Source: Zygnema cylindricum
Lineage: Eukaryota; Streptophyta; Zygnematophyceae; Zygnematales; Zygnemataceae
Assembly (NCBI GenBank): GCA_037447655.1
Contig: JBBHKE010002023.1
Coordinates: 186,001-250,000 of the forward strand
Direction of reading: 5' to 3'
DNA: 64,000 bases
The position numbers and the translations under genes are program-made. Below the pieces are notes generated by a model. That model did no database searches, was not told the origin of the DNA, and worked only from the letters and a program-made list of their open reading frames with translations. How positions within the stretch are numbered: position 1 is the stretch's first letter; each line of letters begins with the position of its first letter. Of this stretch, positions 18,291 through 62,200 are shown piece by piece.

Positions 18291-18383
18291 AATTAAGGCA
18301 TAGAAACAAAAAGATGAGGATGCGCACGCTCGCCTAATGATCTTACTCTCTCATTTCCTCTACTGATACTCAAGCAGAAAAAG

Positions 18384-22360: not shown

Positions 22361-23530
22361 CTAATATCCAATTTTCGACATCCTTGCTTTAAAAGTTCTC
22401 CCGAAGACGTCATTAAGAACTGTCTTGGTTGCGTATGCTGATCGGACAATCTCAAGAGCCTGGCAACCAACCAAGCACAAATACAACATCCAACAAAATA
22501 ATACGTCACTTTAAATGAGTTTAGAAACTTCACGGCCAGATCATTTTGAATGACATTGAGTAAGAATTTTTTATATTTGTTCCTCAAAAGATGTAAGTAT
22601 TCTATGAACAATAAAAGAGTAAACGGCTTACCTTTTTTGCGTCAACTTCAACATCAAAGCTCTCCAAGTCTTCGAGCTTGCAAACTCTTATACGATTCAA
22701 CAAACTGAGTGTCTTTATTGTGGAAGCCGGAAACATCTCTAAGTCATCGGTCACGATAAACGTGACTGTCTCCTTCACAAAGCCTTTGACGTGACTTCTT
22801 GCAGGATTCAAGTTCATTGTTGGATCTGAATCGTCCTCCAATGTCACTTCCACTGTCATGTTTCCGCTGTTGCACTTCTTGCAAGGAGTGTTGTATTTTG
22901 TAGATACTATGTTGAAACATTCAAGGCCCGTGTTAAAGCGCGAGTTGTATCTATTGCGACTGCTTCCAGCAGCGACTGTAGCACTGTATGAGCACCGGAA
23001 TAATCTTTCAGGAGGCTTTCCGTCTGTATCGCTATCCGTCAACCGAAACATCGATTGACTTGCAGCACTTGTAGGAAGCTTTGGAAAAGTAAGCTCCACT
23101 TTTTGTTCCAACAGGTACTGATCCGGCAGTTTCAATAGGCTGCCGTACAAGTTGACAATTCCTGCAAAGGCATCGTGTCCTTCTTTGACCATCGCATTCT
23201 CGAAGAGAAGTCCGAAGGTCGTGGAAGCTGGTAGCAAGAGGAGAGATAAAAGGAGGTCCGTGAAATCTTTTCCTGCTTCCATGTAAAGAATCTGTCCACT
23301 TTTCTGCACAAATAATAAAGCGGTGTGGAAAATATAACTCATGCTAACAGTGTTTTTCATTTATTTTTCCAAAACGCAAGAATTGTGCATAAATTTAAAC
23401 AACGTAATTTTTCTGCATACTCCTGAATTGGAAATGCATATCTGGATATACGTGAACTGCTGTTCGACAAATATTTCACCTTATCTCCTAAAAGAGTGAT
23501 CATTATTGGAGAAGAATCTGAAGCAGCCAT
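22361..23530 (-). CDS. DUF674 family protein, 273 aa, apparently intact
   Basis: Three exons on the minus strand: 23480-23530 (MAASDSSPIMITLLGDK), 22632-23303 and 22361-22459, all phase 0, with GTGAAA and GTAAGC donors and GTGCAG and GCCAG acceptors. Residues 18-31 give KSGQILYMEAGKDF, the family N-terminal signature. FRC ends at Cys121 and CKKC is at 158-161, a possible metal site with Cys121. GFVKETVTFIVTDDLE is at about 191-206, followed by FPASTIKT. The C-terminus has SAYATKTVLNDVFG. Family function is unknown. At 273 aa it carries one repeat where many relatives carry two. A near-identical sister at 26521-33682 is broken by a transposon. Confidence 0.8.
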
Positions 23531-25960: not shown

Positions 25961-27079
25961 TATTTCCTCAATTTATATCCCTCAAAGCCACATTAACCGT
26001 TGCATCTTAATTCAACTAAATCAAAACCACCAGACACAGCTTCGCCAATAAGAGCCACTCCATATTGGACATCACTTTCAACTTAAGGCTTGCTTTTAAA
26101 TCCTGTTTTCAAAATTTAGGGATGCAACCTATACTCTCCACTCTCTACTCTTAAACTCGTTGTTCACAGTATTTCTGGCAATCTGCTTATTACCGACAGC
26201 ATGTACATTTTTGTAGTCTTGTAAAAGAAAAGAAAAGTTAGAGAACTAGTGTTTTCATGAGATATAAGATTGCAAGAAAACAAAAATATTTTAATGCCAC
26301 AACATGACATCAATGTTACGATTTACAATTATTGAATCTAGGTTTACGTGATGCTTGTTCGTTTTTAGTGTGGTTTAGATTTGGTCTCGCGTCACTTCGC
26401 GTATATTCAATCAATGTCGTCAGCACATCTATTGCCTTAGAGCATCATATCAAGGATTGTCCAAAATCTTACTATGCAAGATTCTAAAGCTCTAAAACAC
26501 TGCAAGATGTATATCCACTTCTAGTATCCAATTTTCGACATCCTTGCTTTAAAAGTTCTTCCGAAGACGTCATTAAGAACTGTTTTGGTTGCGTATGCTG
26601 ATCGGACAATCTCAAGAGCGTGGCAACCAACCAAGCACAAATACAACATCCAACAAAATAATACGTCACTTTAAATGAGTTTAGAAACTTCACGGCCAGA
26701 TCATTTTGAATGACATTGAGTAAGAATTTTTTATATTTGTTCCTCAAAAGATGTAAGTATTCTATGAACAATAAAAGAGTAAACGGCTTACCTTTTTTGC
26801 GTCAACTTCAACATCAAAGCTCTCCAAGTCTTCGAGCTTGCAAACTCTTATACGATTCAACAAACTGAGTGTCTTTATTGTGGAAGCCGGAAACATCTCT
26901 AAGTCATCGGTCACGATAAACGTGACTGTCTCCTTCACAAAGCCTTTGACGTGACTTCTTGTAGAATTCAAGTTCATTGTTGGATCTGAATCGTCCTCCA
27001 ATGTCACTTCCACTGTCATGTTTCCGCTGTTGCACTTCTTGCAAGGAGTGTTGTATTTTGTAGATACTATGTTGAAACA

Positions 27080-27701
27080 TGTTGGATTATTGTCGTTTCG
27101 CGGTATTTCCGCGAAGCGTCATACCAACATTTAATTGTTGACGTGAAGTACCACGTCATCATACGAAATGTACGATGTAAGTTTCGTGGTACTAATTTTG
27201 AAGCGTCCGCGAACGAAACATACTATTTCGTTTCGCGTGACTTTTGTCTTCATGTACAGATGTTTGATTTTGCGTGCAGGTGTACTTGTGAAGCGACACG
27301 TGTTAAGTCAACGTTTTGGAGTTTGTTGTTTCGAAGGAAGAAAGCGCGTGCGCCTTCCTTCGTGGAATTTTCATTGAAGAGTGCACAGTCAGCTAGGGAC
27401 AGACTTCGTCGCTACGCTAAGTTCTACTTGTCTTATCTTGTTGTCTCTTAGTGTAAAGTAGCGAGTATATATAGGCAGCAGTGTACATGTGCAGAGTATT
27501 AATTAATCAACCAATTAATCATAGAGGATTAATAGTGAAGAGAGAGAAGAGAGAAGAGACATGATGTAAAGAGGCTTCGACCAAGAACACTTATAAATCT
27601 TTTTGGCTGAATATTCCTCTTGTCTTTTATGAGCTTCCGCTGTGTAATGATTTTTGTATTGTGAATTATTATTGTAAAACTCTTTTGCTTAAGTTCCTAC
27701 A
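27080..27701 (+). repeat. Copia-1 5' LTR
   Basis: 622 bp, TG...CA ends. U3 has a 7-bp perfect inverted repeat, TTCGCGG-tattt-CCGCGAA (27097-27115), and a second, GTACCACG...CGTGGTAC (about 27148-27196). The 102-residue frame inside it (27143-27451) is present in both LTRs simply because they are copies. Confidence 0.97.
27466..27473 (+). promoter_or_regulatory. Copia-1 TATA box
   Basis: TATATATA inside GCGAGTATATATAGGCAGCAG, about 385 bp into the LTR. The same box is at 32831-32838 in the 3' LTR. It sets the likely U3/R border about 30 bases downstream. Confidence 0.7.
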
Positions 27702-27720
27702 ATTGGGATCGGAGCTAGTG
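27702..27720 (+). other. Copia-1 primer binding site
   Basis: TTGGGATCGGAGC begins two bases after the LTR. It matches the initiator-Met tRNA PBS consensus TGGTATCAGAGC at 10 of 12 positions, with one of the two differences able to wobble-pair. Confidence 0.65.
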
Positions 27721-27743
27721 CTTCGGAGATAGAGAGAGAGCGC

Positions 27744-28682
27744 ATGGGGAGGAAGAAGAATAGAAATACTCCTTCCCCCATGTCGACTTCGGAGAGAGCA
27801 AGAGAGTTCAGTTTTTCGGGTTCTCAATTTGAGGAGACTCGGAATACGGAGAGAAAATTTGAGGAGATGTTTGATACATTAATGAGATATGTAGATTCAC
27901 GATTTCAAACTCAATCTAGTGAGAAAAGAGAATTTGCTTCATTTCAGGCTGCCGATCCATTCAGTGGAGGAGCTAATGAGAGTGAGATAAAAGAGAGAAT
28001 TAGGAAAGGTAAAGCAAAGATAGAGGAAGATTCAGATTTTGAAGAAGCGTTGGATAATGAAGATGATTATAATATGTCGGGGAAATCCGTGGCCTTTAAT
28101 GGCACCAATTATGCGGTTTGGAAGAAATTTATTTCAAATCAACTTATTCTCAAGAGGCTTTGGAGGATTGTCAATGGAGAAGAGAAGATGCCAACGGAGA
28201 GTAAGGCACGTGCTCAATGGAGGTTGAAAGATATTGCGGCAACGACCGGTTTGATGAAGAATTGCACTTCTTCCGTGCTTGATCATTTCCTCGCTCACGG
28301 AACGGCCCATGAGTGTTGGCAAGCACTTGAAGAGCAATATGAGAAAGGTGTTGAGAACAAAGGTCAATATGTTTATACGGATTTTATGAATTTTAAAATC
28401 AAGTCAAATGAATTGATGGATGATGCCGTGAAGCGCTTCAATATCATACTCGAGCAATTACTCAACAATGGTCGAGTTATTTTGGATGCGGATAAATTAA
28501 GCGTGTTTCTTAACGCTTTGCCGGAGAAGCTTTCGCATCTTAAAGCTATTTTACGAGCGAAGGCGGATAACACTTTCGGATTCACCGTCAATTTTACCAA
28601 AATGTCGGAGGGAACAAGGAGGAGGAGGAGTTCTCAACTCTACTACTCCCGAAACCCCGGATCTCAACTATGCCGGTGGTAG
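27744..28682 (+). CDS. gag: Copia-1 Gag (capsid part)
   Basis: Starts at the first ATG after the PBS (MGRKKNRNTPSPM). A polar, acidic N-terminal ~110 residues is followed by the copia Gag core with FNGTNYAVWKKF, LWRIVNGEEK, ECWQALEEQYEKG, then LEQLLNNGRVILD and LSVFLNALPEK. True Gag frame ends near 28610: the run GGG at 28610-28612 appears to carry one extra G. After it, the correct continuation (GVLNSTTPETPDLNYAGG) is in the +1 frame. The last 23 codons to 28682 are therefore out-of-frame readthrough. A programmed +1 shift is an alternative, but an indel is simpler. Confidence 0.85.
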   Translation: MGRKKNRNTPSPMSTSERAREFSFSGSQFEETRNTERKFEEMFDTLMRYVDSRFQTQSSEKREFASFQAADPFSGGANESEIKERIRKGKAKIEEDSDFEEALDNEDDYNMSGKSVAFNGTNYAVWKKFISNQLILKRLWRIVNGEEKMPTESKARAQWRLKDIAATTGLMKNCTSSVLDHFLAHGTAHECWQALEEQYEKGVENKGQYVYTDFMNFKIKSNELMDDAVKRFNIILEQLLNNGRVILDADKLSVFLNALPEKLSHLKAILRAKADNTFGFTVNFTKMSEGTRRRRSSQLYYSRNPGSQLCRW

Positions 28683-30426
28683 AGGAGGTGGTAGAGGAGG
28701 TGGCCCGAGAAGTGGTGGTGGCGGCCGAGGCAACAAGAGGGAGCAAGGTCGTCCACCGAAAGTCCCTTCGGATCTTTCCAATGTGACATGCTACCGGTGT
28801 AACCGGCTTGGACATTTGTCTTCATCTTGTCCGGATAAGGATAAACAATGTCATTTTTGCGGTAAGTGGGGGCATACGATCCCTCAATGTTATTCGAAGA
28901 GTGGAGATTCCGGAAGTGGAAGAGGAGGTAGAGGAAGTGATAGAGGCGCCCGAGGTGGCGGCCGAGGAGGACGCCGCGGTGGTGGTAGTGGTTACGGTAA
29001 TGCAAATTACTTTGACTATGGTAATGAAACCGGTGATGTTTTTCCGGTTCTTAACCTTACCCTTGATTCGGTAAGTAGTGGAGGAAATTTGGAAAAAGAG
29101 TGGATCATTGATACGGGGGCATCTCACCATGTTTGCACGGATGCTACCTTGTTTGATGACATGAGGGAACTTACGGTTCCAAAGTTTATTACGGTAGCAA
29201 GCGGCCATGTCATTTCGGTTGGTACGGTTGGCACGGTTCGGCTTGATCTTCTTTCATGGGATAATGATGGGAAGGAGAGATCGACGGAGTATCGTCTTCA
29301 AAATACTCTTTACATTCCGGACGGTTCGGTCAATTTGTTAAGCGTTCCACAAATCCAAAAGAGTGGTGGAAGTTTACTTGCGAGAGGTGATCAATCTATC
29401 GAGATTTGGAATGAGAAGGGGAATGTAATTGGAGAAGGAGTTGTAACGGATGCGAATCATAGTCGGCTCTTATGGAGGAGGCCGAAATCTAAAGTTCCCA
29501 CCGAGGGAATTTCACATCAAATTTCGGAGTTGAAAGGTGATCTTACCTTATGGCATCATCGAATGTGTCATACATCCGAGGTAAGTTTGAAGAAGATGAT
29601 TCGTCATTCTTCGGTGAGGGGTTTGGACCTTGCATCCGGTGAGAAGGTGAACGGATGCGGAGGATGTAGCAAAGGACGTCAAATTCGGAAATCCCATCCG
29701 AATAAAGACATCAAGCATCGAGCTCAAAGTCCTTTGGAGGTTGTTCACATCGATCTTTGTGGACATATTAAACCCGAGACAATTGGAGGTAACAAGTATA
29801 CTTTGGTGATTGTTGATGACTTCTCTCGGAAGTCATGGGTGTACTTATTGAAAAAGAAATCGGATGCATTTGAAAAATTTAAAGAATGGCATGTAATGGC
29901 CGAAAGGCAAATTGATAAGAAGCTTAAGTCTATTCGATCGGATAATGGAGGGGAGTTTGTTGTTTTTGAGGGGTATTGTAAGGAGTGGGGGATAAGGCAT
30001 CAATTCACGGCGCCTTATTCTCCGGAATCAAATGGAGTGGCCGAGAGAAAGAATCGTACCTTACAAGAAATAGTCCGTGCGATGGTTCATAGCTCCGGAC
30101 GAGAGATGTTTTTGTGGGGAGATGCGATTCTTACGGCGAATTACATTTGTAACCGAAGACTCACTTCGGTTTCCGGAAGTAAAACACCGGAGGAGTTATG
30201 GAGTGGTAGAAAGCCCACGGTTCATCATTTGAGAATTTGGGGATGTCATGCTACGGTTTATGTAGAATCAATTAAGAGGAAGGGGAAATTTGCACCAAGG
30301 TGTTGGCCGGGAATTTTTGTGGTTATAGTGCGAAGGGGAATTTGTACCGAGTGTATGATCCGGCTCGTCACACCGTGGAGGAATCTCGGAATATGGATTT
30401 TCATGAGGATCTCAAATCCGCCATGA
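28612..30426 (+). CDS. pol: Copia-1 nucleocapsid, protease and integrase
   Basis: An RGG-rich linker is followed by two CCHC knuckles (CYRCNRLGHLSSSC and CHFCGKWGHTIPQC, 28789-28890), a second RGG-rich stretch, then protease with IIDTGASHH (DTG at 29110). Pre-integrase HHCC is LWHHRMCHTSE ... CGGC (29550-29670). The integrase core has VVHIDLCG (Asp near 29752), SIRSDNGGEF (Asp near 29940) and SNGVAERKNRT (Glu near 30042), a complete D-D-E triad. A missing G in the GG at 30321-30322 shifts the frame, so residues after GIFV to 30426 are not genuine. Comparison with 54826-54850 (GIFVGYSS) supports a one-base deletion. Confidence 0.9.
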   Translation, partial: EQGGGGVLNSTTPETPDLNYAGGRGGGRGGGPRSGGGGRGNKREQGRPPKVPSDLSNVTCYRCNRLGHLSSSCPDKDKQCHFCGKWGHTIPQCYSKSGDSGSGRGGRGSDRGARGGGRGGRRGGGSGYGNANYFDYGNETGDVFPVLNLTLDSVSSGGNLEKEWIIDTGASHHVCTDATLFDDMRELTVPKFITVASGHVISVGTVGTVRLDLLSWDNDGKERSTEYRLQNTLYIPDGSVNLLSVPQIQKSGGSLLARGDQSIEIWNEKGNVIGEGVVTDANHSRLLWRRPKSKVPTEGISHQISELKGDLTLWHHRMCHTSEVSLKKMIRHSSVRGLDLASGEKVNGCGGCSKGRQIRKSHPNKDIKHRAQSPLEVVHIDLCGHIKPETIGGNKYTLVIVDDFSRKSWVYLLKKKSDAFEKFKEWHVMAERQIDKKLKSIRSDNGGEFVVFEGYCKEWGIRHQFTAPYSPESNGVAERKNRTLQEIVRAMVHSSGREMFLWGDAILTANYICNRRLTSVSGSKTPEELWSGRKPTVHHLRIWGCHATVYVESIKRKGKFAPRCWPGIFVVIVRRGICTECMIRLVTPWRNLGIWIFMRISNPP

Positions 30427-30851
30427 ATTCCGTTGGGAAATTTAAAGAAAATTTGGATTTCTATGAGGAGAGTGAAATTGAGAATTTTCCTTACATTGGG
30501 GATTCGGAATCCGATGTGGAACCGAATGAGGAAACTAAGAAAAAGAATTTGAAGAAATCGGTTGAAATTGAATTTGGAAGTAAGAGTGATGGATCTTTGG
30601 ATTCCCGAGTGCCTTCGAACATTCGGAAATCTCAAAGTTCTAAATTGAGCTCTAAATCGAGTGAGAAGGATATTGAAATTGAATCCGAGGAAGAGAAAGA
30701 AGAAAAAGAGGAGGAGCAAGTTATTAGGAGGAGCTCTCGGATTACAAAGGGGAAGAAACCGGAGAAACTCACTTACGATCGAAAAGGGGAAAATGCATCG
30801 AATTCACATTATTTTCTTTCCGATGCTAAGGAGACGGAGTTTCTTTTGTAG
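30321..30851 (+). CDS. Copia-1 integrase C-terminal tail, ending at a conserved stop
   Basis: The frame continues from integrase after the one-base loss: GYSAKGNLYRVYDPARHTVE, then a long charged linker (ESEEEKEEKEEEQ). Next come RRSSRITKGKKPEKL and NSHYFLSDAKETEFLL, then TAG at 30849. The same order of features precedes a stop in three other elements of this window. The acidic linker and basic patch could be a chromatin-targeting module, an inference. Confidence 0.8.
   Translation, partial: GYSAKGNLYRVYDPARHTVEESRNMDFHEDLKSAMNSVGKFKENLDFYEESEIENFPYIGDSESDVEPNEETKKKNLKKSVEIEFGSKSDGSLDSRVPSNIRKSQSSKLSSKSSEKDIEIESEEEKEEKEEEQVIRRSSRITKGKKPEKLTYDRKGENASNSHYFLSDAKETEFLL
30849..30851 (+). promoter_or_regulatory. 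In-frame TAG between integrase and RT, readthrough context
   Basis: TAG CAA TCA CTT. The two codons after the stop fit CAR-YYA, the type I readthrough signal of tobamoviruses. The frame continues without shift into RT (QSLTEN, then PQSYVEARR). The stop sits at the same alignment position in elements at 55388, 56526 and 61542. Confidence 0.6.
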
Positions 30852-32411
30852 CAATCACTTACGGAGAATATGACCGGCGACCCTCAATCTTATGTCGAGG
30901 CGAGGAGGTCGACCGATTGGGAGAGTAAGTGGAAACCGGCGTGGGAAAAAGAATTTAAGTCGGTGGTTGATAATCGAACTTTTGAGGAAGTGAAATTACC
31001 GGAGGGGAAAAAGGCGATTGATGCAAAGTGGGTCTTTAAAACCAAAATTGGAGCGTCGGGTGAAATAATTAAGTACAAGGCGAGGCTTCTGTGTAAGGGG
31101 TTCCAACAACGTGAGGGAATCGATTTTAAGGAGACTTATGCTCCCGTGGTGAAGTTCGACTCACTACGGATTATTATTGCAATTGCAGCGATGGGGAAGA
31201 AGCACATCCATCAAATGGACGTTGAGACCGCGTTTTTAAATGGTGAGTTGGAGGAAGAGGTATATATGAAAGTACCGGAAGGTGTCTCTCCTTTGAAGGA
31301 AGGAAATGTATGGCGTTTGAGAAAATCATTATATGGTTTGAAACAAGCACCACGCACTTGGTATTTGAGACTTCATCAAGTGTTATTGAAGTTTGGATTT
31401 GTACGGACTACGTCCGATTGTGGAGTTTACGTGAAAGGTGAAGGAGTTGATCAAATCATCTTTTATGTTTATGTGGATGATTTCTTGATGGCATGCGACA
31501 AGTTGGAGCGCATTAATGAGTTGAAATGTTATCTTGGATTACATTTCAAAGTAACGGATCTTGGAGAGGTACGATATATTTTGGGGATTGAAGTGATACG
31601 TGACAAGGAGGGGAACATTAAATTGAGTCAAGCTCAATATTGTAAGGAGATTTTGGAGAGATTCGGTATGACTGACGTGAAACCGCTTTCTACACCGTTG
31701 GATGCAAACCTACACATTCGTAAGTTTGAAGAGGAGGATTCTATCGACGTACCTTATCGAAAGGCGGTTGGTTCACTTATGTACCTTAGCGTTGGTACTC
31801 GTCCAGATATTTCGGCCGCGGTTTCTATCGTAAGCCGTTATTGTCACGAGCCAAAGAAGGCGCATTGGGAGGCCGTACGACGTATCTTTCGATACTTGGT
31901 TGGTACGATTGATCTTGGACTTTTGTTTACTTCTGACAAAAATTATTTGGAGTGTGTTGGGTATTGTGACGCGGATTGGGGCGGCGATTTTGATTCAAGT
32001 AAGTCTACGTCAGGATATGCATTTATTTTTGGGGGAGCTGCGATCTCGTGGAGTTCAAGGCTACAACCTACGGTTGCGTTGAGTTCCACAGAATCTGAGT
32101 ATATGGCTGCGTGTCATGCAGCTAAGGCTTCGATTTGGATTAAGGAGATGTTACGTGAGTTAAGCATTCCTATTGGTTGTATGACGATTTATTCTGACAG
32201 CATGAGTTCTATGGCGTTGGCGAAAAATCCTGTGTTTCACAAGAGGACGAAACACATCAGGATCCAATGGCATTTTGTAAGAGATTTGGTTACGACAAAT
32301 GAGATTGAATTTTCGTACGTACCAACTAAAGAGGAGGCGGCTGATTTGTTGACAAAGGCTGCTACACATGATGTGTTTGAGAGGGGACGACCAAAACTTG
32401 GATTATTTTGA
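30852..32411 (+). CDS. pol: Copia-1 reverse transcriptase and RNase H
   Basis: Open from the codon after the TAG to a TGA at 32409. The first ATG is at 30870 (numbering below). RT shows KWVFKTKIGASGEIIKYKAR (54-70), HQMDVETAFLNGE with catalytic Asp117, SLYGLKQAPRTWY and the YVDD box at 201-204. RNase H shows YCDADWGG (Asp367), SSTESEYMAA (Glu near 408) and YSDSMSS (Asp443), so all catalytic residues are present. The end has HKRTKHIRIQWHFVRD and ADLLTKA. If expressed only by readthrough, RT would be made at a fraction of Gag-PR-IN. Re-initiation at 30870 is an alternative. Confidence 0.92.
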   Translation, partial: QSLTENMTGDPQSYVEARRSTDWESKWKPAWEKEFKSVVDNRTFEEVKLPEGKKAIDAKWVFKTKIGASGEIIKYKARLLCKGFQQREGIDFKETYAPVVKFDSLRIIIAIAAMGKKHIHQMDVETAFLNGELEEEVYMKVPEGVSPLKEGNVWRLRKSLYGLKQAPRTWYLRLHQVLLKFGFVRTTSDCGVYVKGEGVDQIIFYVYVDDFLMACDKLERINELKCYLGLHFKVTDLGEVRYILGIEVIRDKEGNIKLSQAQYCKEILERFGMTDVKPLSTPLDANLHIRKFEEEDSIDVPYRKAVGSLMYLSVGTRPDISAAVSIVSRYCHEPKKAHWEAVRRIFRYLVGTIDLGLLFTSDKNYLECVGYCDADWGGDFDSSKSTSGYAFIFGGAAISWSSRLQPTVALSSTESEYMAACHAAKASIWIKEMLRELSIPIGCMTIYSDSMSSMALAKNPVFHKRTKHIRIQWHFVRDLVTTNEIEFSYVPTKEEAADLLTKAATHDVFERGRPKLGLF

Positions 32412-32432
32412 AGAGTTTGGCGATTCCGACAA

Positions 32433-32444
32433 TAAGAGGGGGAT
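32433..32444 (+). other. Copia-1 polypurine tract
   Basis: TAAGAGGGGGAT directly before the 3' LTR TG, the plus-strand primer position. Confidence 0.8.
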
Positions 32445-33066
32445 TGTTGGATTATTGTCGTTTCGCGGTATTTCCGCGAAGCGTCATACCAACATTTAAT
32501 TGTAGACGTGAAGTACCACGTCATCATACGAAATGTACGATGTAAGTTTCGTGGTACTAATTTTGAAGCGTCCGCGAACGAAACATACTATTTCGTTTCG
32601 CGTGACTTTTGTCTTCATGTACAGATGTTTGATTTTGCGTGCAGGTGTACTTGTGAAGCGACACGTGTTAAGTCAACGTTTTGGAGTTTGTTGTTTCGAA
32701 GGAAGAAAGCGCGTGCGCCTTCCTTCGTGGAATTTTCATTGAAGAGTGCACAGTCAGCTAGGGACAGACTTCGTCGCTACGCTAAGTTCTGCTTGTCTTA
32801 TCTTGTTGTCTCTTAGTGTAGAGTAGCGAGTATATATAGGCAGCAGTGTACATGTGCAGAGTATTAATTAATCAACCAATTAATCATAGAGGATTAATAG
32901 TGAAGAGAGAGAAGAGAGAAGAGACATGATGTAAAGAGGCTTCGGCCAAGAACACTTAAAAATCTTTTTGGCTGAATATTCCTCTTGTCTTTTATGAGCT
33001 TCCGCTGTGTAATGTTTTTTGTATTGTGAATTATTATTGTAAAACTCTTTTGCTTAAGATCCTACA
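32445..33066 (+). repeat. Copia-1 3' LTR
   Basis: 622 bp, the same length as the 5' LTR. Differences seen by eye include TTGTTGACG/TTGTAGACG, TTCTACTTG/TTCTGCTTG, GTAAAGTAG/GTAGAGTAG and AAGTTCC/AAGATCC. Confidence 0.97.
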
Positions 33067-33872
33067 AAACATTCAAGGCCCGTGTTAAAGCGCGAGTTGT
33101 ATCTATTGCGACTGCTTCCAGCAGCGATTGTAGCACTGTATGAGCACCGGAATAATCTTTCAGGAGGCTTTCCGTCTGTATCGCTATCCGTCAACCGAAA
33201 CATCGATTGACTTGCAGCACTTGTAGGAAGTTTTGGAAAAGTAAGCTCCACTTTTTGTTCCAACAGGTACTGATCCGGCGGTTTCAATAGGCTGCCGTAC
33301 AAGTTGACAATTCCTGCAAAGGCATCGTGTCCTTCTTTGACCATCGCATTCTCGAAGAGAAGTCCGAAGGTCGTGGAAGCTGGTAGCAAGAGGAGAGATA
33401 AAAGGAGGTCCGTGAAATCTTTTCCTGCTTCCATGTAAAGAATCTGTCCACTTTTCTGCACAAATAATAAAGCGGTGTGGAAAATATAACTTATGCTAAC
33501 AGTGTTTTTCATTTATTTTTCCAAAACGCAAGAATTGTGCATAAATTTAAACAACGTAATTTTTCTGCATACTCCTGAATTGGAAATGCATATCTGGATA
33601 TACGTGAACTGCTGTTCGACAAATATTTCACCTTATCTCCTAAAAGAGTGATCATTATTGGAGAAGAATCTGAAGCAGCCATTGGATCCTTTTTTCAATC
33701 AATTCTTCTTTGGATCAGTGCTCCTGCAAACTACGTTTTCTGGCTTTCTATCTAATACTCCAAATATATTCCGAAACCTGTTACCGAATTTCTGCAGCTT
33801 GTAAAGAGCGATTTTGTCAGCAAAATATTTGCCCTGACTGGCACTGCCGGAATCATCTGAAGTCAGAAAGAC

Positions 33873-35175
33873 ACGCTGTGTCTACTTTCCTTCTCCAAGG
33901 TTTTGAAACATATGGAACTTCTACTGAAAGCTCAACAGAAGATTGGAGACCACGGACGTTCATATCGCATCTTTGGGGGACGGCGGTAAATAAAGTTTCT
34001 TTACATCGGTAAATACATAACACTCAAATATATAACACTCACATTTAAATAGTAATTTTCATATAGTACTATAGGATATTAATGTAGTAGATAATATACG
34101 GTTATAATATGGTATAACAGCATAGTATAGTATAGTATAGTATAGTATAGTATAGTATAGTATAGTATAGTATAGTATAGTATAGTATAGTATAGTATAG
34201 TATAGTATAGTATAGTATAGTATAGTATAGTATAGTATAGTATAGTATAGTATAGTATAGTATAAGTATAGTACAATATAGTACTATAACGGTATTAGAC
34301 ATACGTACGCACACACGTTTAGTCTACACATATTATTTATATCGTACATTTTGAAAAATAACCATTGGTCTCACCGGTTTCATATTGTTCGTCGGGTCTT
34401 TATTATTTCTGCATTCCTGAAATAGTGATCGCCGTTTTAGCATGCTATCACAAATTTAAAATGTTAAAGCGTCTTTATTTCATGTTTGAAATTCTTTGGG
34501 ATTCACCGACTATCTTTGCATGATTGAAAGAAACCCCCAGAGGTCAGCAGGAAATGCACATCACATGCATGGAAAAAGTAACAAAACAAACATGCGTAAA
34601 AAAAACGAAAGTCAATCGAAAGTTGATAAAGGTCGGCATGTGATTTTGACTTTACGAAAAAGGAATGCTAGTTTCAGAGAAACCAGTTTTGATGTAGATA
34701 AAATATACCATCATTTGTACAAAATTTTGAAAATTGGTAGCTTGGATTAGAAAAGGGATAATAAACCGTACGAACACTGAAAATTTTTGTACGAAAACTT
34801 TAATGTGATACAATAATTGGTTAAAATTTCTCGGCGTGAGTCTCAGTACCAAAAAGAGAAAATTTTCTGCTGAAAAACAAGAATGCATGGCTTTTCTATT
34901 CGATGGTTTTGTGGAACGTTGGCTTTCTCCTTACGTTCTTCTTTCCTTGTTTTCTTCCATTTTCCAGCAGCATTTTCATGTTCCAATGTGTTTTCGGAAT
35001 TTTCCAACGACTTTTTGACTTCACATTCTGCCAGTTAGGGCAACTGCATATTTTTGACAAGCTGTAAAAATTCGGTTAATTTTTTAGAGGATCTTTGGAG
35101 GATTAAATAGAAAGCCAAAATTCACATTTGCAGCAGCACTAATAAAAAAGAGTGGAATCACGGAACGAAGAAACT
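33873..35175 (+). promoter_or_regulatory. Upstream region of the 415-aa DUF674 gene
   Basis: Collinear with 49230-50543 upstream of the sister gene at 50544. It includes the TATAG array at 34126, a stretch TTTTTGTACGAAAACTTTAATGTGATACAAT, and the reverse complement of the CCATGC-TTCTTG module found upstream of the minus-strand genes. No gene is seen. The frames at 34496 and 34652 are not supported. Confidence 0.5.
34126..34260. repeat. (TATAG)n pentanucleotide microsatellite
   Basis: 27 perfect TATAG units plus partial units at both ends. The orthologous place near 49446 has about three or four units. The minus-strand YYTIL frames are an artefact of the repeat. Confidence 0.98.
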
Positions 35176-37785
35176 ATGGCTGCTTCAGGTTCTTCTTCCG
35201 TTCCTCCAATAAGAATCAATCTTCTCGGAGATAAGGTGAAGTATTTTCCAATGTCAGTATGGTAATGCAAAGAATAGTTGTTCAAGTCCATGTTTATTCA
35301 ATTCCGGTTTATGCAAAAAAATTGAAGCTATGCTGAAAATAATCCTTATGAAATTTCGGTTTATGTAAAATGTTTGAAGTTTTCCTTCAAGTTTAAGTGC
35401 AAAAACTTCTGCTTTTGGCAAAATGGATTACAACTGAAGAACGATGTTTCATACTCCCTTTTTCTGTGCAGAAAAGCGGAAAAATTCTTTACATGGAAGC
35501 AGGAAAAGACTTCACGGATCTCCTTTTCTCTCTCCTCCTCCTACCAGCTTCCACCACCTTCGGCCTCCTCTTCGAGAATGGGATGTTCAAAGAAAGGGAG
35601 GACGTCTTTGCAGGAATCGTCAACTTGTACGGCAGCCTGCTGCAACTGCAGGATCATTATTTGCTTGAAAAAAAATCTGAGCTTATTTCCCCGAAGCTTC
35701 CTATTGGTGCTACAAGTCAACCAATGTTCCGATTGACAAATAGCAGCACAGATGGAAACCCTAAAAAACTTTACCGATGCTCATACAATGTTACGTACCC
35801 CACCTCGGGTCTTGCATGTAACAACAAAGTATCGACAAATTACAACTCTCGTTGCAAGGATTGCAACAGCGGAAACATGACAGTGGAAGTGACATTGGTA
35901 GACGATTCTGGTCCAGTAGCAAATGTGAACGCTGCAGGTCGGAGCATGAAAGGTTTTGTAAAGGAGACTGTCACATTTGTCGTCACAGATGACTTGGAAA
36001 TCTTTCCTGCTTCGACTATAAAAACATTCACTATATTGAATCGTTTAAAAGTTTGTAAGCTCGAGGATTTGGAGAGCCTCGAGGTTGACGTCGATGCAAA
36101 AACGGTAATATATTTCCACTTACTATCGTTGTTCAAAAAATGCTTATATTTCTCGAGGAACGTACGTAGGAAAGGATCATGTGAAATTGGAAATTTGATT
36201 GAGTGAAGATTTTTTATTTTTACTTATTTATTAGACGTTCTTACAATATATTCCTGGGTGTTGTGTTTGAGATGGAATAGTGAATTTTTACAACAGTTTA
36301 GTACAAATTAGCGATTCATACCATCTTGTTGACAAAACAGGATCCTTTACATGTGACCAGTCGCCCTGTTTTGCAAGTAATATAAGGAGATAAAAGCTGC
36401 AATTCTTATTATAGATGTCCAATAGTCGAGATTTTTCTAGCAATCTAGGTTGTTCAACTATCATTTTTGCAAATTACAACAGCCCCTGTCCTAGGTGTTT
36501 TGGCAGTTTTATGACGAAAATGTTGATAATGAAGAAAAAAAGTGATACTACAGCAAAAAAGTTACCTGCAAATCAAACAGATCCTATAAATTCGTTTTCC
36601 GGATTTGTGAAAGAACATGTTAGGTTTTTTGTGACTGATAATCTGGATTTTTTTCCTGCTTCAACCATAAAAACATTCAGTTTATTGAACCGTTTGAAAG
36701 TTGGAAAAACGGAGGATTTGAAAAGCCTGGAGGTTGTTATAGACTCAATAAAGGTGACTATAATCCGAAAGATAATGAAAACATTGAAGAATAGTAATTA
36801 AATGATTAATATACTTATCATTTCAATGTCATTCTTTGATTATTTATTTGTTAATTGGCAGATTAGAGTTTGTCTCCGGAAAGTATCTCATGAGTTACAC
36901 GTGGAAACATGTCTAGTACTTTTTGCTTTATTGGTTTATACTTTAACTTGAACAACTATCCTTGCAGTCTACAACAATCTCTTGCTTGTTTTTTGAGCTT
37001 GCTTGTTTTTTGAGCCGTTTTTTTCATAGTTTTGATTTGTTCACTTTAGGGGTGTAGTTTAAACCAGGATTAAAACAAAAAACAAGCTAGTAAACAGGTA
37101 ACAATAATCAAGTTTAACCTCCATTTTTTTCTGTTTTGAGTTATTATTGCAGGCAAGTGAGATTATATATGCTTCTTACGCAAGTAAAACAGTTTTGAAT
37201 GATGTCTTTGGTGGCGATTTCAAGTATTATATTTCGCTGCGTAAGTATTAAACTTGGAAAATAGAAATTAATAAGACATATAATTGCCAAGAAGTGTAGA
37301 TTAAATCAAATGTTCATATTTCAATTAAACATTTTGTATGGCAGTATAAGGTGTCAAAAGATGCCAAACTTTTTAATACGGTGCTTCAACTTTGCTATAG
37401 GTGTAACGGTCTTTAGAGAGTAGCGTTACAAAATTTTAGGGTTGAATAGTGGATATCAGATACAACAGGCCAATAAAGTCGGTCAATGAATAGTAGAAGC
37501 AGGGAACTGATTGAGTTTGAATTAAATCTAAACTTAAAACCTTGAAACGTCAAAAGTATTGGTACAAATTGCTTTCCTAGAAGCTTTTGCATGGCATTAG
37601 CTGAAAATTGTTTAACTGCAAAGGAATTTAACTTTTGAAACTTACATGTCCTTGCAGGCGGTCGCTGTTACAATTCAGCCGTAGAGCTGAAAAGAAGCGT
37701 CATTCGGCTTCAGTTGGAGCAAATTTCTCTTTTTGATTTCGTAAAATCCATCTGGATTATATGGAAGAATTTGTTTTACGGTTAA
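35176..37785 (+). CDS. DUF674 family protein, 415 aa, with second partial repeat
   Basis: Five-exon model: 35176-35235 (MAASGSSSVPPIRINLLGDK), 35472-36104, 36415-36753, 37153-37240 and 37658-37785, ending at TAA. Phases are 0, 0, 0 and 1 and the frame stays open throughout. Exon 2 holds the full first repeat: KSGKILYMEAGKDF, YRC, CKDCNSGNMTVEV, GFVKETVTFVVTDDLE. Exon 3 holds a second, shorter repeat with CPRCFGSFMTKM and GFVKEHVRFFVTDNLDFFPAS. Exon 4 gives ASKTVLNDVFGGDFK. Exon 5 adds a novel tail (GRCYNSAVELKRS). Gene function is unknown for the family. The exon 5 call is the weakest part. Without it the protein would end soon after 37241. Confidence 0.7.
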
Positions 37786-54140: not shown

Positions 54141-56330
54141 ACGATGAAAAAAGAGTTAATGGATGCGAAAGATGTTGTCAAGGGAAACAAATCCAGAAAC
54201 CTCATCCACCGAAAAGATAATAAGTTTCAGTCCTCGCATCCTCTCGAATTAATCCAAATCGATTTGTGTGGACATGTAAAGCCGGAAAGTATTTGAAGGA
54301 ATCGTTACATCATGGCCATTGTTGATGATTACTCTCGATTTTCATGGGTGATTCTTTTGAAACAAAATTTTGACGCATTAGAGAGGTTTAAGGAGTGGCA
54401 TATCATGGCGGAACGACAATGTGGGAGAAAAAATCGAAATCCATTCGATCGGATAATGGCGGGGAATTTATCGCATTTGATGGATATTGTTGAGAATGGG
54501 GAATAAAACATTAAAATACGGCACCTTACTCTCCGGAATCGATGGAGTGGCTGAACGCAAAAATAGGACACTCAAAGAAATGGTTCGAGCAATGGTGCAT
54601 GCATCCGGTCGATCTAGGTCACTATGGGGAGATGCACACTTAACCGCTAACTATATATGTAATCGGCAACTCACATCTATTACGAGTGATAAAACACCTC
54701 ATGAGTTGTGGTATGGTTGAAAACCTACTCTACATCACTTGCAGATTTGGGGATATCGTGTTACCGTATATGTAGAATCACAAAATCGGCCAATGAAATT
54801 TTCATCCAAAAGTTGTTGGTCGGGAATTTTTGTAGGATATAGCTCGAGAAGAAATCTTTACCGAATTTATAATCCGTCACGGCACACAATTATTGATTCA
54901 CGAAATTAAAACTTCCCTGGGGACTTGAAAACCGCAATTGAAGGATCAGCAAAATTATGGAGAAATTTGGATTTTCATGACGAAGCCAAAATTTCTAATT
55001 TCCCGGACATTGGGGAGTCCGACGAAGCCGGAATTTCTAATTTCCCGGACATTGGGGAGTCCGATGACGACATTGAGCCTGATCCGGCTGTCAATGTCAA
55101 GAGGGGGGATCGAAAATTGGACATTGTATAATAAATTGAAACATTAACGTTAAATCGACATTCGAATTCACGAATGTCATCCGAATCTCAAAATTCTACA
55201 AGTTTAAAATCATGCTCTTCAAATCAAACCGAATAGCATAAATACAGAGTTGGATGTTAATTTAAGGAGGATTACACGGGAATCTAAGGGTAGAAAACCG
55301 GCTAGATTATCTTTCGACCGAAAAAGATGGAATGTTGAAAATTCACATTACTTCATTTCGGCAACTAAGGAGGATGATTTCCTCCTCTAGCAATCACTTT
55401 GTGAGAACTCCGCCAGTGATCCCCGATCTTATTGTGAAGCAAGAAATTCGGGTGATTGGGAGTCAAAATGGCAGCCGACTTGGGAGAAAGAATATAAGTC
55501 CATCGTAGAGAATCGTACAACGAAATTGATTTACCGAAAGGGAAGAAGGCGATCGATGCCAAGTGGGTCTTCAAGACAAAAACTGGTGCTTCTGGAAAAA
55601 TAAGTATAAAGCTAGACTAGTATGTAAAGGTTTTCAACAACGGGAAGGAGTTTATTTATTTTACAAAGGCATATGTGCCAGTTGTAAAATTCGACTCCTT
55701 ACGGATGATTGTGCCTATTGCGACAGTTGAAAAAAAACACATCCACCAAATGGATGTTGAAACCGCCTTCTTGAACGAGAAACTTGAAAAAGAAGTGTAC
55801 ATGAAGATTCCAGAGGGAGTTGCCTCAAAGGAAGGGAAGGTAAGGTAAAGCGCCAGAAGTCTTTGAACAAATTGAAGAAGGCGCCCCATACTTGGTACCT
55901 ACAATTGCATTCAGTGATAACAAATTTCAGATTTCAACGGACTACTTCAAATCCGGGCGTTTAGGTTTAAAGGGAAGAAGAAGACAAAAAAAATTTCTCC
56001 GTTTACGTGGACGGTTTTCTGATGATTTCCGATAGTCTACAGAAAATCAACGAATTGAAGGCTTTTCTACGCCTTTATTTTAAGGTAACACACCTCGGAG
56101 ACGACCGTTACATTTTGGGGATCGAAGTTATAAGATATCCTAACGAAGATATCAAACTGAGTCAAACTCAATACTGTAGAGAAGTGTTAGAGCTGTTTGG
56201 CATGTCGAATGCCAAACCACTTTCTACGCCCATGGATCCCAGGTGTCATTTAAGGAAGTTTGAGGAGGAATACAAACAACTTGTCAATTTGTACGTCAGT
56301 CCAACCTCAATCGTACCGGCCAAATATTAA
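54141..56330 (+). pseudogene. Copia fragment B1 (integrase to RT), plus strand
   Basis: Begins inside the pre-integrase zinc motif (GKQIQKPHPP), then LIQIDLCGH, IVDDYSRFSW, SDNGGEF and GVAERKNRT in shifting frames. It continues with GIFVGYSS and a 42-bp tandem duplication at about 54985-55070 (NFPDIGES repeated). The linker ends FISATKEDDFLL, a TAG at 55388, then QSLCEN and RT. RT keeps KAIDAKWVFKTKTGAS, MDVETAFLNEK and LSQTQYCREVLE, but the catalytic box reads YVDG instead of YVDD (about 56005). It is broken off at about 56330. No LTRs are seen. Confidence 0.85.
55388..55390 (+). promoter_or_regulatory. Conserved TAG at the integrase-RT boundary in B1
   Basis: TAG CAA TCA CTT, in frame with FLL before and QSLCEN after, the same position and context as 30849. 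Confidence 0.6.
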
Positions 56331-56489
56331 AGGATATGCTTCACGGCCTCCTAATGGGATTTTTTCGCTTCATGACAGAAAGTTGAAATTGCCACAGCAA
56401 TATCCGGACGAATACCGACACTCAAGTACAGAAGACTTGCGATGGCTTCTCGATATGGAACGTCGACCGACGTTTCCTCAAACTTCTAA

Positions 56490-58590
56490 CCGGAGGTCAC
56501 CGGCGGAGTTCTCACAAAGTGATTGTTAGAGGAGGAATCATCCTCCTTAGTCGCCGAAATGAAGTAATGTGAATTTTCAACATTTCCTCTTTTTCGGTCG
56601 AAAGACAATCTAGCGTTTTTTCTCCCCTTAGACTCTCGTGCACTCCTCCTCGGGTTTACATCTGACACTTTGTCTTTATCCAATTCGATTTGATTTGAGG
56701 AGCTTGATTTTGAGCTCGTAGAATTTCGAGATTTAGATGACATTCGAGAATTCGTATGTCGCGATTCAACATCAATGTTTTCATTTTCTTAGTCAATGTC
56801 CAATTTACGTTTCCCCTCTTAACATCGAAATCCGGATCACGCTCAATGTCGTCATCGGACTCAATGTCTGGGAAGTTGGAAATTTCGGCTTCGTCATGAA
56901 AATCTAAATTTCTCTGCAAATTTGCCGATCCTTCAATTGGGGATTTCAAGGCTTCATGGAAATCCACATTTCGTGATTCAATAATTGTGTGTCGTAAGGG
57001 ATCATAAACTCGGCTAAGATTCCCTCGCGAGCTTTATCCTACAAAAATTCCCAACCAACTCGATGAAAATTTCCCTCGCCGATTTTGTGATTCTACATAC
57101 TTGGTATTGTGACATCCCCAAATCAGCAATTGGTGTAGAGTTGGTTTCCGATCGTACCACAACTCATGAGGCGTTTTATCGCCCGAAATGGACGTGAGTC
57201 GTCGATTACCTGTATAGTTAGCGTTTAAGAGTGCATCTTCCCAAAGTGACATAGATCGACCCGATACATGCACCATAGCTCGAACCATTTCTTGGAGTGT
57301 CCCATTTTTGCGTTCAACAACTCCATTTGATTTCGGGGAGTAATGTGTGGTATGTTAATGTTTTATTCCCCATTCTCTACAATATTCATCAAAAGCAGTA
57401 ATTTCACCGCCATTAGCCGATCGATTAGACTTCAATTTTCCCTCACATTGTCGTTCCGCCATGACATGGCACTCAAACCTCTCTAAAGCTTCAGAATTTT
57501 GTTATAAAAGGATCACTCATGAAAATTGAGAGTAATTATCATCAATGACCATGATGTAACGATTCCCTCCAATAATCTCTGGTTTACATTTCCACACAAA
57601 TCGATTTGGATTAATTCAAGAGGATGTGATGACCGAAACTTAGTATCTTTTCTGTGGATGAGGTTTCGGATTTGTTTCCCTTGACTACACCCCTCGCATC
57701 GATTAACTTTTTCTCCCGAGGTCAAATCCAAGCCCCTCACACAACCGGTTTTTATCATTCGCCTTAGACCCCCGTCGGTTGTATGGCACATCCGCTGATG
57801 CCAAAGACTTAAGTCTCCTTTAAATTCTGAGATTTGATTTATAATTATATCGGGATGTGAATCTATTTTAGGCTGCCGCCAAAATAGCTGACTATGCGTA
57901 TTTTCCACGACTTCCCGTTCACCTATGACAACTTCTTTTTAATTAACAATGTGAATGGTTGAATCCCAAGGGCATGTACACTACCATTTGTTTGTTGGAT
58001 TTACAAGACATTGTGTAAATTAACTGAACCATCAAGAATGTAAAGTACATTGACCAAACGGGTATGAGTGACGCAATATCTCCCTTCTTAATTAAATGTG
58101 ACAAGGTCTAAACGGACGGTTCCCACATTGGTGACAAAGATAATTTGTCCTCTTGCAATCGTGATTTTCTCTAGAATCGTCAACTGCAGCAAGTCATCAA
58201 AGAGTGTCACATCGGTGCAAATATGATGTGATGCTCCCGCATCAATCACACACTCTTTTTTTAAATATCCATTTTTTGCTGATAAATCAACCGAGAGGTT
58301 GAGACAAGAAAATGTCTGAGCACCTACTCCCTACCACTCTTCATATCCACCATCTCCAAAAAAACGTCGTTGACCACTAAAACGGCCACCACCTTGGCCA
58401 CCACTCATCCTCGGTTGCATATGCGACCTCCTCTACGGCCGCCATTATAGCCACCACGGCTGCCATTGAATCCACCTCTACCGCCTCCACCTTCGCCGTC
58501 CCCTTTTGCATAACATTGAGAGCTTAAGCGCCCCCTCTTGCCGCAAAAATAGCATTGTCGATCCTTGTTGGGACTTGACACCGCCAAATT
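56490..58590 (-). pseudogene. Copia fragment B2 (zinc knuckle to integrase), minus strand
   Basis: In minus orientation: a knuckle CYFCGKRGRLSSQC (His changed to Arg, 58550), an RGG-rich stretch and protease IDAGASHHICTD (DTG changed to DAG, about 58240). Next come pre-integrase LWHQRMCHTTD and CEGCSQGKQI, then LIQIDLCG, EMVRAMVHVSGR and GIFVG. Then the linker NFPDIESDDD and SHYFISATKEDD, a one-base loss, and TAA at 56526-56528 at the conserved position. It is close kin to B1 and lies inverted to it. Confidence 0.85.
56526..56528 (-). promoter_or_regulatory. Conserved TAA at the integrase-RT boundary in B2
   Basis: Reading CTC-TAA-CAA-TCA-CTT on the minus strand, the stop sits where B1 and Copia-1 have TAG, once the adjacent one-base deletion is allowed for. 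Confidence 0.5.
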
Positions 58591-59208
58591 GTTGAAAAGT
58601 ATGATTTCGTGCTATACCAATTTATGTGAGACGAACGATTCGAGGCGTTTTGAGACAGCAGTACAAACAACGATATATCAGTTTTGGTGATATTTTCAGC
58701 GAAACGATATTTTACCAAGTGTATATCAAAATCGGGACTACAATACCGATTTGTGATAAGACTTCACACGTGACGATTTCCAACGGGAAATCATGTGACA
58801 GAGGACAAAACCGAGCGTCCTCATTGGAGACACTTATGGAGGACACCAAGACACATGCCATTCATCCATTGGACCGCAATCCACCACTCCATTAGGCATA
58901 TCACCATCGGTGCATTCAGAAAGGGATAAATGGGCATGTAAGACAAGCATTTCATTAAGGTTTAAGGAATCAAAGCATAGGGCTTATGATGCATATGAGA
59001 AGCTTTCAGAAGAGAACACTCTGTTACACATTATTTAGTGAGATTACAAGAGTGTACACTTCATAGACATTTGACATCATTACATTTATGTACAGATTAG
59101 ATTAAAGAGTAGTTAAGAACTCAGCTTTAGTCTCAGTTGAGATAAGGGATTACAAGTGTCAAATTTGCGGCAGCGAAGGAGGTCATCAATAGTCGCGAGA
59201 AATCGACA
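58591..59208. other. Junction sequence, no gene
   Basis: Unrecognised sequence between two oppositely oriented copia fragments. It may include the eroded gag of the element starting at 59209, but no Gag core motif is visible. Confidence 0.5.
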
Positions 59209-62200
59209 ATGGCATACGCTATCAATAACCTGAAGAGTACAAAGAAGGAGAAGGCAACACCGAAAGAGGAAAACAAGGGGTCATCTTATCTAAGTAAACA
59301 AGAGGATGACGGAGGAGCTTACAACTTTACGGGATCTAGGGGGAGAGGAGGTGGACCTCGTGGACGAGGAGGCAAGTCACAGTGCCCAGGGAGAGGCTCA
59401 TATCAACGTGATACCTCTCAGATGACTTGTTACAATTGTAACGAGATTGGGCATGGCTCCTTTGAATGCCCAGACAAAGGTAAACAGTGTAACATTTGTC
59501 AAAAATGGGGACACACTGGTCGCGGCTGTTATCAAAACAAGGGAAACAATCGCGAAGGGGGACAATTTAGAGGCGGAGGAAATGGAGGAAGACAAGGGAA
59601 ACAATCGCGAAGGGGGACAATTTAGAGGCGGAGGAAATGGAGGAAGTAGTTCATCAGGTAGAGGCGATTTTGTTGGGGATAGGCAAGTGGACAAAATCAA
59701 AACTTTTCCAGTTCACTCATGGAGGAAACACTCGAAAAGGAGGATATTCTATTTCACACACGAGGCAATGAGAGTAAAAAAAAAATTATCAATTGGATCA
59801 TAGACTCAGGTGGTACACATCACACGTGTTCAGATCTAGGACAATTCACTGACGTTAGGAAACTCACTATACCAAAATCCATCAAAGTGGCTAATGGTTC
59901 AATGATGGTTGTTGATACAGTGGGAACAGTACAGTTAGATCTACGGACACAAGAGAGGGAAAGGAAAACTAGAGTCAATAGAGTACGTTTTAATAATGTG
60001 TTTTATAATCCGGGGGGTTGCATCAATCATTTAAGTGTCCCACAACTCCAGAGGAAAGGAGGAAGAGCCACATGCTTGGAAGGGGGTAGAATCATATTGA
60101 GTAGTAAAACAGGACCATTTGCAGAGGGGGTTGTAACTGAAAACATCCAAAGTAGGCTAATTTGGAGAAAACCAGAAAAGCCGATGAAGAAGGGCACCTC
60201 CATTCGGCAGAGCTCAACAAAGAGGACCTCATGTTGTGGCATCATCGTATGTGTCACACTTCAGAGAGTAACATCAAAGAGATGATTCGTCATTGTGCAG
60301 TTCGAGGACTAGATGTGACGGCAAGAGAAAAGGTCATCGACTGTGTGGGATGCACAAAAAGGAATCATAAAAAGAAGCCTCATCCGGTGAAAGATCTTCA
60401 GTTGTAAGCAAACAACCCTTTAAATGTAGTCTATGTAGAACTTTGTGGTGACATACACCTATAAACCATTGGAAAAAATAAAAACATTATGGTGATAGTT
60501 GATGGTTTCAGTAGGAAGACATGGGTGTACCTTTTAAAAGCAAAGTCAAAAGCATTAAAGATTTTTAAAGATTTTGTGGTTATGGCTGAGAGAGAAAGTG
60601 GGAGGCAGGTAAAAGCAGTATGATCGGACCGTGGAGGTGAATTTTTTTCCTTTGCTAAATATTGCAAGGAGACTGGAATTAAGCAGCAGTTCATGGCTCC
60701 TTATTCCTCACAATCGAATTGAATAGCAGAGAGGAAGAACCGAACATTTAAAGAGATGGTGCGGGCAATACACCATACGACTAAACTCACACATCATCTT
60801 TGGGGAGAGGCAATTAGGGCGGCTAATCAAGTCACCAATCGGAGAATCAACTCGGCTTTAGGCAACAAACACGGGAGGAACTTTCGAGTGGACAAGCGCC
60901 CAAGGTAAAACATTTAAGGATTTGCGGATGTGAGGCTATGGGGTATGTAGAGGAAAGAAACCGGGAAGGAAAGTTTGCGGCACGATGATGGGAAGGATAC
61001 TTTGTGGGGTACAGTGAAAACTCAACGCAGCATAGCATTTATAACCTCGTTACTAGAAAGGTCCGTGAGTCTAAAAATGTTGAGTTCCATGAAAACTTGG
61101 AATGGATGGTGAAAGGAGCTCGGGCCGAAGATTACGAGGAGGAGAGTCATTATGAGTACTTCACAGGAGAGGCGGGGGAAAAAGAAGATGTCTTGATGGA
61201 GGTAGAGACATAGAAAAAGGTGCGATTTGTGGAGCACTTTAGAGAAAGTTCCGAAACCTAAGACCACGAGCAACGAAGCACGGGGACAAGGTCATTAGAG
61301 AATCTTCCACTCACACAAACAACGTGACATCAGAAGAAATACCCTTGAGAAAGAAGGCGATGACAAGATTGGGAGCAATGACTCGGATAAGGAATATGCA
61401 GAAAATATACGGAGAAGCAAGTGATCAACAAAAGGGAAGGCAAAGGAACGATTCTCACCAGGACTGTCTTATAAAAAACAAACCAGCTACGAGAGGGCAA
61501 TTTGCAAACTTAGAGAAAGAAGGGGGAAATATTTTCTCTTATGAAAGGCAATTACAGAAAATCGTCCAGCCTATCCTCAATCATACCAAGAAGTTAGAGA
61601 CTCGGACGGATGGGAGGAGAAGTGGAAACCAACGTTTATAAAGGAGTTCAATTATGTAAAACAAATGGGTGTTTTGAAGAAGTAGACGTATCATTTGGTA
61701 AGAAGGGGATAGACTCAAAGTGGGTTTTTAAGACAAAGACGGAAGCCTCAGGACAAATTCTTAAGTATAAGGCGCGTTTAGTATGTAAAGGCTTTCAACA
61801 GAAGAATGGTATTGACTTTTCAGAGACTTTTGCTCCCGTGGTTAGTTTGATTCTTTGCGAGCAATTATTGCAATGGCGGCGACATAAGGAATGCATATAC
61901 AACACATGGATGTAGAGACGACTTTCTTGAATGAAAGAATTAGAGGAGGAGGTGTAAATGAAAATTCCAGAAGGAGTTCCTAGAAAGAATGGTAAAGCAT
62001 AGAGGTTATGGAAGGCTTTGTATGGTTTGAAGCAGGCACCAAGAACATGGAACCATAAAATTCACAAGGTTTTACTAATTTTGGAATTTAGTAGGCTTAC
62101 TGCAGATTGTGGAGTGTATATTCGGGGAGAAGGTTGGGACATGGTAATTTTTCAGTGTATACGTAGATGATTTCATTTCCATCTCTCACAACTTGGATTT

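Follow-up and report, generated by a model that had tools for sequence, protein, structure and literature searches.

Rationing of the pol products against Gag is usually exercised at the gag/pol border. Retroelements are said to hold their pol enzymes at about one for every 20 Gag, and Moloney murine leukaemia virus reads through a UAG stop at a level of 5% (PMC2194720). Among copia elements, Tca2/pCal of Candida albicans carries an in-frame UGA between gag and pol together with a potential pseudoknot, and SIRE1, a Sirevirus of soybean, is a plant copia element with suppression of an in-frame stop (PMC2194720). Plant copia lineages are described as having the order Gag-PR-IN-RT-RH, with a Met-type primer site in most groups, and most groups encode the whole polyprotein in one ORF; the same survey reports, beside these single-ORF groups, others in which ORF1 encodes GAG or GAG-PROT and ORF2 all else, and gives the Bianca lineage a half tRNA-Ile primer site and two ORFs about 172 bases apart (PMC6317226). 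A layout of GAG-PROT-INT followed by RT-RH occurs in none of the plant groups described in the parts of that survey used here (PMC6317226).

Here we analyze a stretch of 64,000 nucleotides from the alga Zygnema cylindricum (contig JBBHKE010002023.1, positions 186,001 to 250,000; hereafter the window). It holds an LTR retrotransposon, Copia-1, and relics of related elements, B1, B2 and C, in which a stop codon lies between integrase (IN) and RT.

Results

Structure and state of Copia-1

Copia-1 belongs to the Ty1/copia LTR retrotransposons, in that Gag and IN precede RT (RVT_2), the LTRs have TG..CA ends and the element is flanked by a target duplication (Table 1). The two LTRs differ at 7 of the 623 bases compared (98.9% identity). 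Pfam domains zf-CCHC, Pol_BBD, gag_pre-integrs, rve and SH3 were found in 28609..30321, and RNase H was recognised through alignment to relatives only. The putative primer binding site TGGGATCGGAGC resembles the initiator tRNA-Met type. From the end of the RT frame to the start of the 3' LTR there are only 33 bases and no env-like frame, and suppression of the SIRE1 kind, leading into such a frame, was rejected on that ground.

The earlier note described Copia-1 as otherwise almost intact, which is wrong. Its frame changes twice, at the gag/PR junction (about 28609) and within IN (about 30280-30320), so that gag lies in frame 3, PR-IN in frame 1 and the end of IN again in frame 3. Because four database relatives (P0121, P0122, P0123 and P0195) run from gag to IN in a single frame, we take both changes to be probable ordinary lesions or assembly errors; programmed events at these two positions were rejected for the same reason.

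By eye, Copia-1 appears to be inserted within a DUF674-type exon. Exons of this type, typical of flowering plants, occur in the window at 22602-23360, 35397-36206 and 50811-51503 (Pfam PF05056 in 3/3 frames tested), and 33072-33512 and 45945-46493 resemble them by eye. A tandem array of the 5-base unit AGTAT, with more than 20 copies, occupies 34119-34259.

Table 1. Copia-1 and the IN/RT stop sites of the window
Feature	Position	Strand	Remarks
Copia-1, whole element	27080-33066	+	Between LTR ends
Copia-1 5' LTR, TG...CA	27080..27701	+	Ends set by eye
Copia-1 3' LTR	32445..33066	+	
Target duplication AAACA flanking Copia-1	27075-27079 and 33067-33071		5 bases
Copia-1 putative primer binding site TGGGATCGGAGC	27704..27715	+	By eye, after 5' LTR
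Copia-1 gag, frame 3	27744..28610	+	tblastn with P0195 residues 1-305; Pfam Retrotran_gag_2
Copia-1 zinc knuckle, protease region and integrase, frame 1	28609..30321	+	P0195 residues 310-894
Copia-1 integrase end and acidic linker to ...EFLL	30279..30848	+	In the frame of RT
Copia-1 conserved stop TAG	30849-30851	+	
Copia-1 CAATCA	30852..30857	+	Fits the CAR-YYA type I readthrough motif
Copia-1 RT-RNase H frame, open	30852..32411	+	519 aa; Pfam RVT_2
B1 TAG then CAATCA	55388..55396	+	
B2 TAA (56528-56526) then CAATCA	56520..56528	-	
C TGA then AAGGCA, outside the motif	61542..61550	+	Decayed copy

One stop column in the elements of the window

The claim of the earlier note that Copia-1 (TAG), B1 (TAG), B2 (TAA) and C (TGA) carry a stop at one alignment column was confirmed, as were the landmarks given for it: codon listings show F-L-L ahead of the stop in all four elements, P(Q/R)SY begins at the eleventh codon past it in Copia-1, B1 and C, and CAATCA follows it directly in three of the four. 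Every window element that holds the site thus has a stop in the linker column (4/4, with C doubtful). The frame is unchanged across the stop in Copia-1 and B1, and a single tblastn segment of P0195 spans the site in Copia-1, in B1 and in C; a programmed frameshift at the stop was rejected on the ground of this unchanged frame.

The note had also argued that four elements would be unlikely to share a lesion by chance. Descent of the stop within a diverged family stands, whereas four independent cases do not. B1 and B2 have 24 identical bases past the stop, which makes them sisters, and B1, B2 and C are all decayed, with many other stops in each; B2 is out of frame just upstream of the stop, and soon after it the RT match leaps from the RT start to residue 294. 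In C the TGA may be a decayed TGY (Cys) codon, since C has many other stops and P0195, its nearest relative in the IN tree, has Cys at that place. By themselves, the window elements are weaker support than the earlier note claimed. Nevertheless, in the tblastn segments of these elements any further column with a stop has it in two of them at most, and from the stops tallied (9 in about 705 aligned B1 codons and 22 in about 1262 C codons) the chance of B and C both matching the stop column of Copia-1 is about 2e-4.

B1 (+) and B2 (-) are copia relics that face each other in 54126-58596, and their RT matches overlap on opposite strands at about 56186-56270. Other copia relics, on the minus strand at 17076-18305 and 5218-5946, have about 30-45% identity to Copia-1 family RT, and no recognisable IN/RT linker was found in their translated stretches. 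A further fragment of the family, integrase only, lies on the minus strand at the window edge (63723-64000); the IN/RT site was not recognised in the 626 translated bases beside it.

Most database relatives divide at or near the same position

An RT search gave P0001, an RT-RH ORF of 517 aa with 63% identity, whose first residue falls at column +2. That residue is Leu, probably a TTG or CTG picked by the gene caller. In the IN search, P0121, P0122 and P0123 (47, 48 and 44% identical to Copia-1) carry Gag, PR and IN without RT. P0122 (...QLERDLA) and P0123 (...GYEDDLI) align end to end with the Copia-1 frame that closes in ...KETEFLL and the B1 frame that closes in ...KEDDFLL, and P0121 stops 4 columns short; presumably all three of these ORFs end in stop codons. 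P0195, by contrast with the split proteins, is a fused Gag-Pol of 1574 aa, open throughout, with Cys in the very column of the stop (FLF-C-HMNGVTMNGDP, where Copia-1 has FLL-stop-QSLTENMTGDP).

The RT and IN searches had length windows of 285-908 and 353-1121 aa, both of which exclude fused Gag-Pol. A search with P0121 residues 465-925 admitted 562-1788 aa, hence fused ORFs, and found P0121, P0195, P0122 and P0123 at 568 bits or more, the next match having 344. Of the four Gag-IN family proteins listed there, the query included, three are split and one (P0195) is fused. Each of these searches scored about 8000 candidates, those with most words in common, and counts hold among the best matches (at most 120), so that members may be missing. 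Since P0001 and P0121 may represent both ORFs of a single element, we do not treat them as independent; P0010 (360 aa) begins inside RT and is uninformative on the stop site. Scans of viral contigs found no relative, a scan of genome contigs gave L001, 28% identical and outside the family, and tblastn of plasmids and phages found no family member, with a best match of about 40% among the plasmids and none among the phages. Two small records listed under plasmids of Kitasatospora and Streptomyces (NZ_CP115454.1 and NZ_CP115302.1) contain copia-like IN-RT sequence with about 40% identity to P0195, possibly misassigned plant DNA.

Random nonsense mutations and ORF breaks might simply have coincided in a break-prone linker. 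B1, B2 and C do hold many stops, and breaks between IN and RT are common among copia matches generally: as a control, the first residue of 41 of the 120 RT matches listed falls no more than about 40 residues to either side of Copia-1 RT residue 1, and a number of Gag-IN ORFs from outside the family also end somewhere in the linker. P0001 alone is weak evidence for this reason. The ends of the family ORFs, unlike these general copia breaks, fall at one homologous position: Copia-1, B, P0122 and P0123 at the least share a single column, their sequences being homologous to the last residue, and for three ends to lie no more than 5 residues from one given column the probability would be of the order of 6e-5, an estimate that assumes a linker of about 130 residues. 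We consider coincidence very improbable. As an observation on copia elements at large, the RT ORFs among the length-limited matches have their starts concentrated around the IN/RT linker, perhaps owing to indels in low-complexity linkers.

Phylogeny and history of the stop

Trees of RT and IN (34 rows each, hand-picked from the matches and omitting B1, with quick SH-aLRT support only) placed the family as monophyletic against other copia elements. Copia-1, C, P0001, P0010 and P0195 formed one RT clade (SH-aLRT 100), and the IN tree had a 7-row Copia-1 family clade (99), within which Copia-1 paired with B2 (89) and P0195 with C (90), P0121-P0123 forming a third group (98). Copia-1, B1, B2, C, P0001, P0121, P0122, P0123 and P0195 are one copia family. 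Split members occur on both sides of its first fork, and the shortest history is therefore a single gain of the stop followed by a single loss (P0195), provided that the TGA of C is ancestral. Conservation of the IN/RT stop by descent, in elements whose divergence is too great for them to share a random lesion, stands and is widened by the relatives, and P0195 shows that an open member can do without the stop.

Protein constraint continues across the stop

Between Copia-1 and B1, pN/pS was 0.31 for the 25 codons that precede the stop and 0.29 for the 42 that follow it, and between Copia-1 and C it was 0.37 over the 38 codons after it, with synonymous sites near saturation (74-82% difference) in these comparisons. 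The sequence is thus constrained as protein in one frame on both sides of the stop. The constraint on living copies is presumably stronger than measured, because B1 and C include time spent as decayed copies.

This constraint bears on the possibility of a non-autonomous lineage, mobilised in trans, that has inherited the stop as a defect and would obtain RT from other elements without any readthrough. The two frame changes of Copia-1 despite 98.9% LTR identity would suit such a lineage, and mutated copia families are reported to be able to amplify (PMC3701649). Against this, the stop column is common to 44-48% identical elements whose Gag-PR-IN ORFs are otherwise open, and the downstream RT is both open (519 aa in Copia-1, 517 aa in P0001) and constrained; an unused RT would decay. 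We regard a non-autonomous lineage as unlikely.

Bypass of the stop by splicing, with an intron ending at the TAG and RT-RH joined to an upstream exon, has precedents in Ogre elements, which splice between ORFs (PMC6317226), and in Drosophila copia, which splices its gag-pol RNA (PMC2194720). In Copia-1 (TTTCTTTTGTAG) and B1 (TTCCTCCTCTAG) the sequence at the stop resembles a 3' splice site, pyrimidine-rich FLL codons with only synonymous changes being followed by TAG. A search with four donor words, however, found no site in the B1 linker against three in that of Copia-1; the linkers have a U content of 26-27% and are not U-rich, the DLA and DLI ends of P0122 and P0123 are not encodable by a pyrimidine tract, and the 25 codons ahead of the stop are constrained as protein. 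Splicing therefore seems to us a rather unlikely explanation.

RT-RH could also be made separately past the stop, by reinitiation, a non-AUG start or internal entry. Copia-1 has an in-frame ATG at codon +7, and the Leu with which P0001 begins, probably a TTG or CTG start of the gene caller, could be read in the same way. An early ATG after the stop is missing in B1, C and P0001, the first in-frame ATG being at +56 in B1 and +41 in C and the first Met of P0001 lying after the KWVFK motif, with none ahead of it. Moreover, columns ahead of any ATG are constrained in frame. The late ATGs of B1 and C and the lack of Met before KWVFK in P0001 make a separately initiated RT unlikely, and we give separate production as a whole little chance.

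Sequence context of the stop

The type I readthrough motif is defined as CAR-YYA (PMC2194720), and Copia-1, B1 and B2 (with TAA) fit it, whereas C does not. CARYYA follows only 12 of the 6650 stop trinucleotides of the window (both strands, any frame), with Copia-1, B1 and B2 among the 12, and none of a further 30 in-frame stops taken from C and from B1, one alternative-frame segment of B1 aside. P0121-P0123, P0195 and P0001 were compared as protein, and the hexamer is known from the DNA of the window alone. Copia-1 and B1 agree in codons +1 to +3 (CAA TCA CTT), although synonymous conservation there is not clearly in excess: codon identity is 50% at 38 other conserved residues, so that three identical codons are expected with a chance of 0.125 and the match is unremarkable. 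The motif in the two lineages known at the DNA level, Copia-1 and B, may reflect simple common descent.

Folding of the 120 bases downstream revealed no unusual stability (z of -0.4 in Copia-1, -0.2 in B1, +1.1 in C and +0.3 in B2), and with fold stability ordinary, a 3' RNA structure of the MuLV kind was rejected. Type I readthrough sites are said to need no downstream structure. CAR-YYA alone directs readthrough in TMV (PMC2194720), which amounts to about 10% in vivo, inserts Tyr at UAG and UAA and Trp at UGA, and is lost once the first base past the stop is G (PMC2754532).

Discussion

The reading that we consider fairly probable is readthrough of the tobamovirus kind, which would leave Gag-PR-IN in excess and make RT-RH a minor product. 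The family ancestor most likely gained an in-frame stop in the IN/RT linker, at which most ribosomes would terminate to give Gag-PR-IN; a minority would read through the UAG or UAA in its CAR-YYA (type I) context without a change of frame and so make Gag-PR-IN-RT-RH, and the protease would cut RT-RH free of it. The net effect would be that RT is rationed against Gag, PR and IN. We infer the leakiness of the stop and the rate of leakage, as well as an advantage in making little RT. The earlier note had predicted this same division of products. The ORF ends of the relatives, the constraint in one frame and the missing early ATGs fit it, while the Cys of P0195, the lack of the motif in C and the absence of a clear synonymous excess at codons +1 to +3 do not favor it. 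On the wider picture our judgment is evenly balanced, namely that this may be a distinct copia lineage with a tobamovirus-type leaky stop just before RT, with Gag, protease and integrase in excess and only RT-RNase H rationed, with the codon switching between UAG, UAA and UGA and turning into Cys in one branch, as if the valve could be dropped.

Our literature search by title or start of abstract, mainly of openly accessible papers, found no report of an IN/RT stop in any copia element. A stop at this border, most likely one that is read through, is apparently new among copia elements, although stop suppression itself is already known from SIRE1 and Tca2/pCal. The single-ORF plant groups have no obvious valve. 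If the reading is correct, a leaky IN/RT stop would be a different division from the usual one, in which integrase is abundant and only RT-RNase H is scarce. Pipelines that drop elements with a stop in pol would lose this family.

The Met-like primer site of Copia-1 (by eye) and the lack of a gap between its frames at the stop set it apart from Bianca. It shares with the plant copia lineages the order Gag-PR-IN-RT-RH and a Met-type primer site (PMC6317226). SIRE1 is the nearest plant case, at a different border: its stop precedes an env-like frame, whereas that of Copia-1 lies between IN and RT, and Copia-1 has no env-like frame after pol to be reached by stop suppression, as a Sirevirus would. 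Tca2/pCal is likewise a copia element with an in-frame stop inside gag-pol, but its UGA is at the gag/pol border with a possible pseudoknot, whereas the Copia-1 family has UAG or UAA after IN, followed by CAR-YYA, and no evident structure. Moloney murine leukaemia virus and the Copia-1 family are both retroelements with a UAG for readthrough, predicted in the case of Copia-1; the viral stop comes after gag and needs a pseudoknot, and in the virus IN is scarce as well as RT, and that of Copia-1 comes after IN. The tobamovirus 126K/183K pair belongs to an RNA virus replicase of unrelated proteins, with readthrough that has been measured, whereas the Copia-1 family is known from sequence alone. 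It is nonetheless alike in having UAG and CAR-YYA ahead of a polymerase domain and the polymerase as the minor product, and a leaky IN/RT stop, if real, would parallel the tobamovirus rationing of polymerase.
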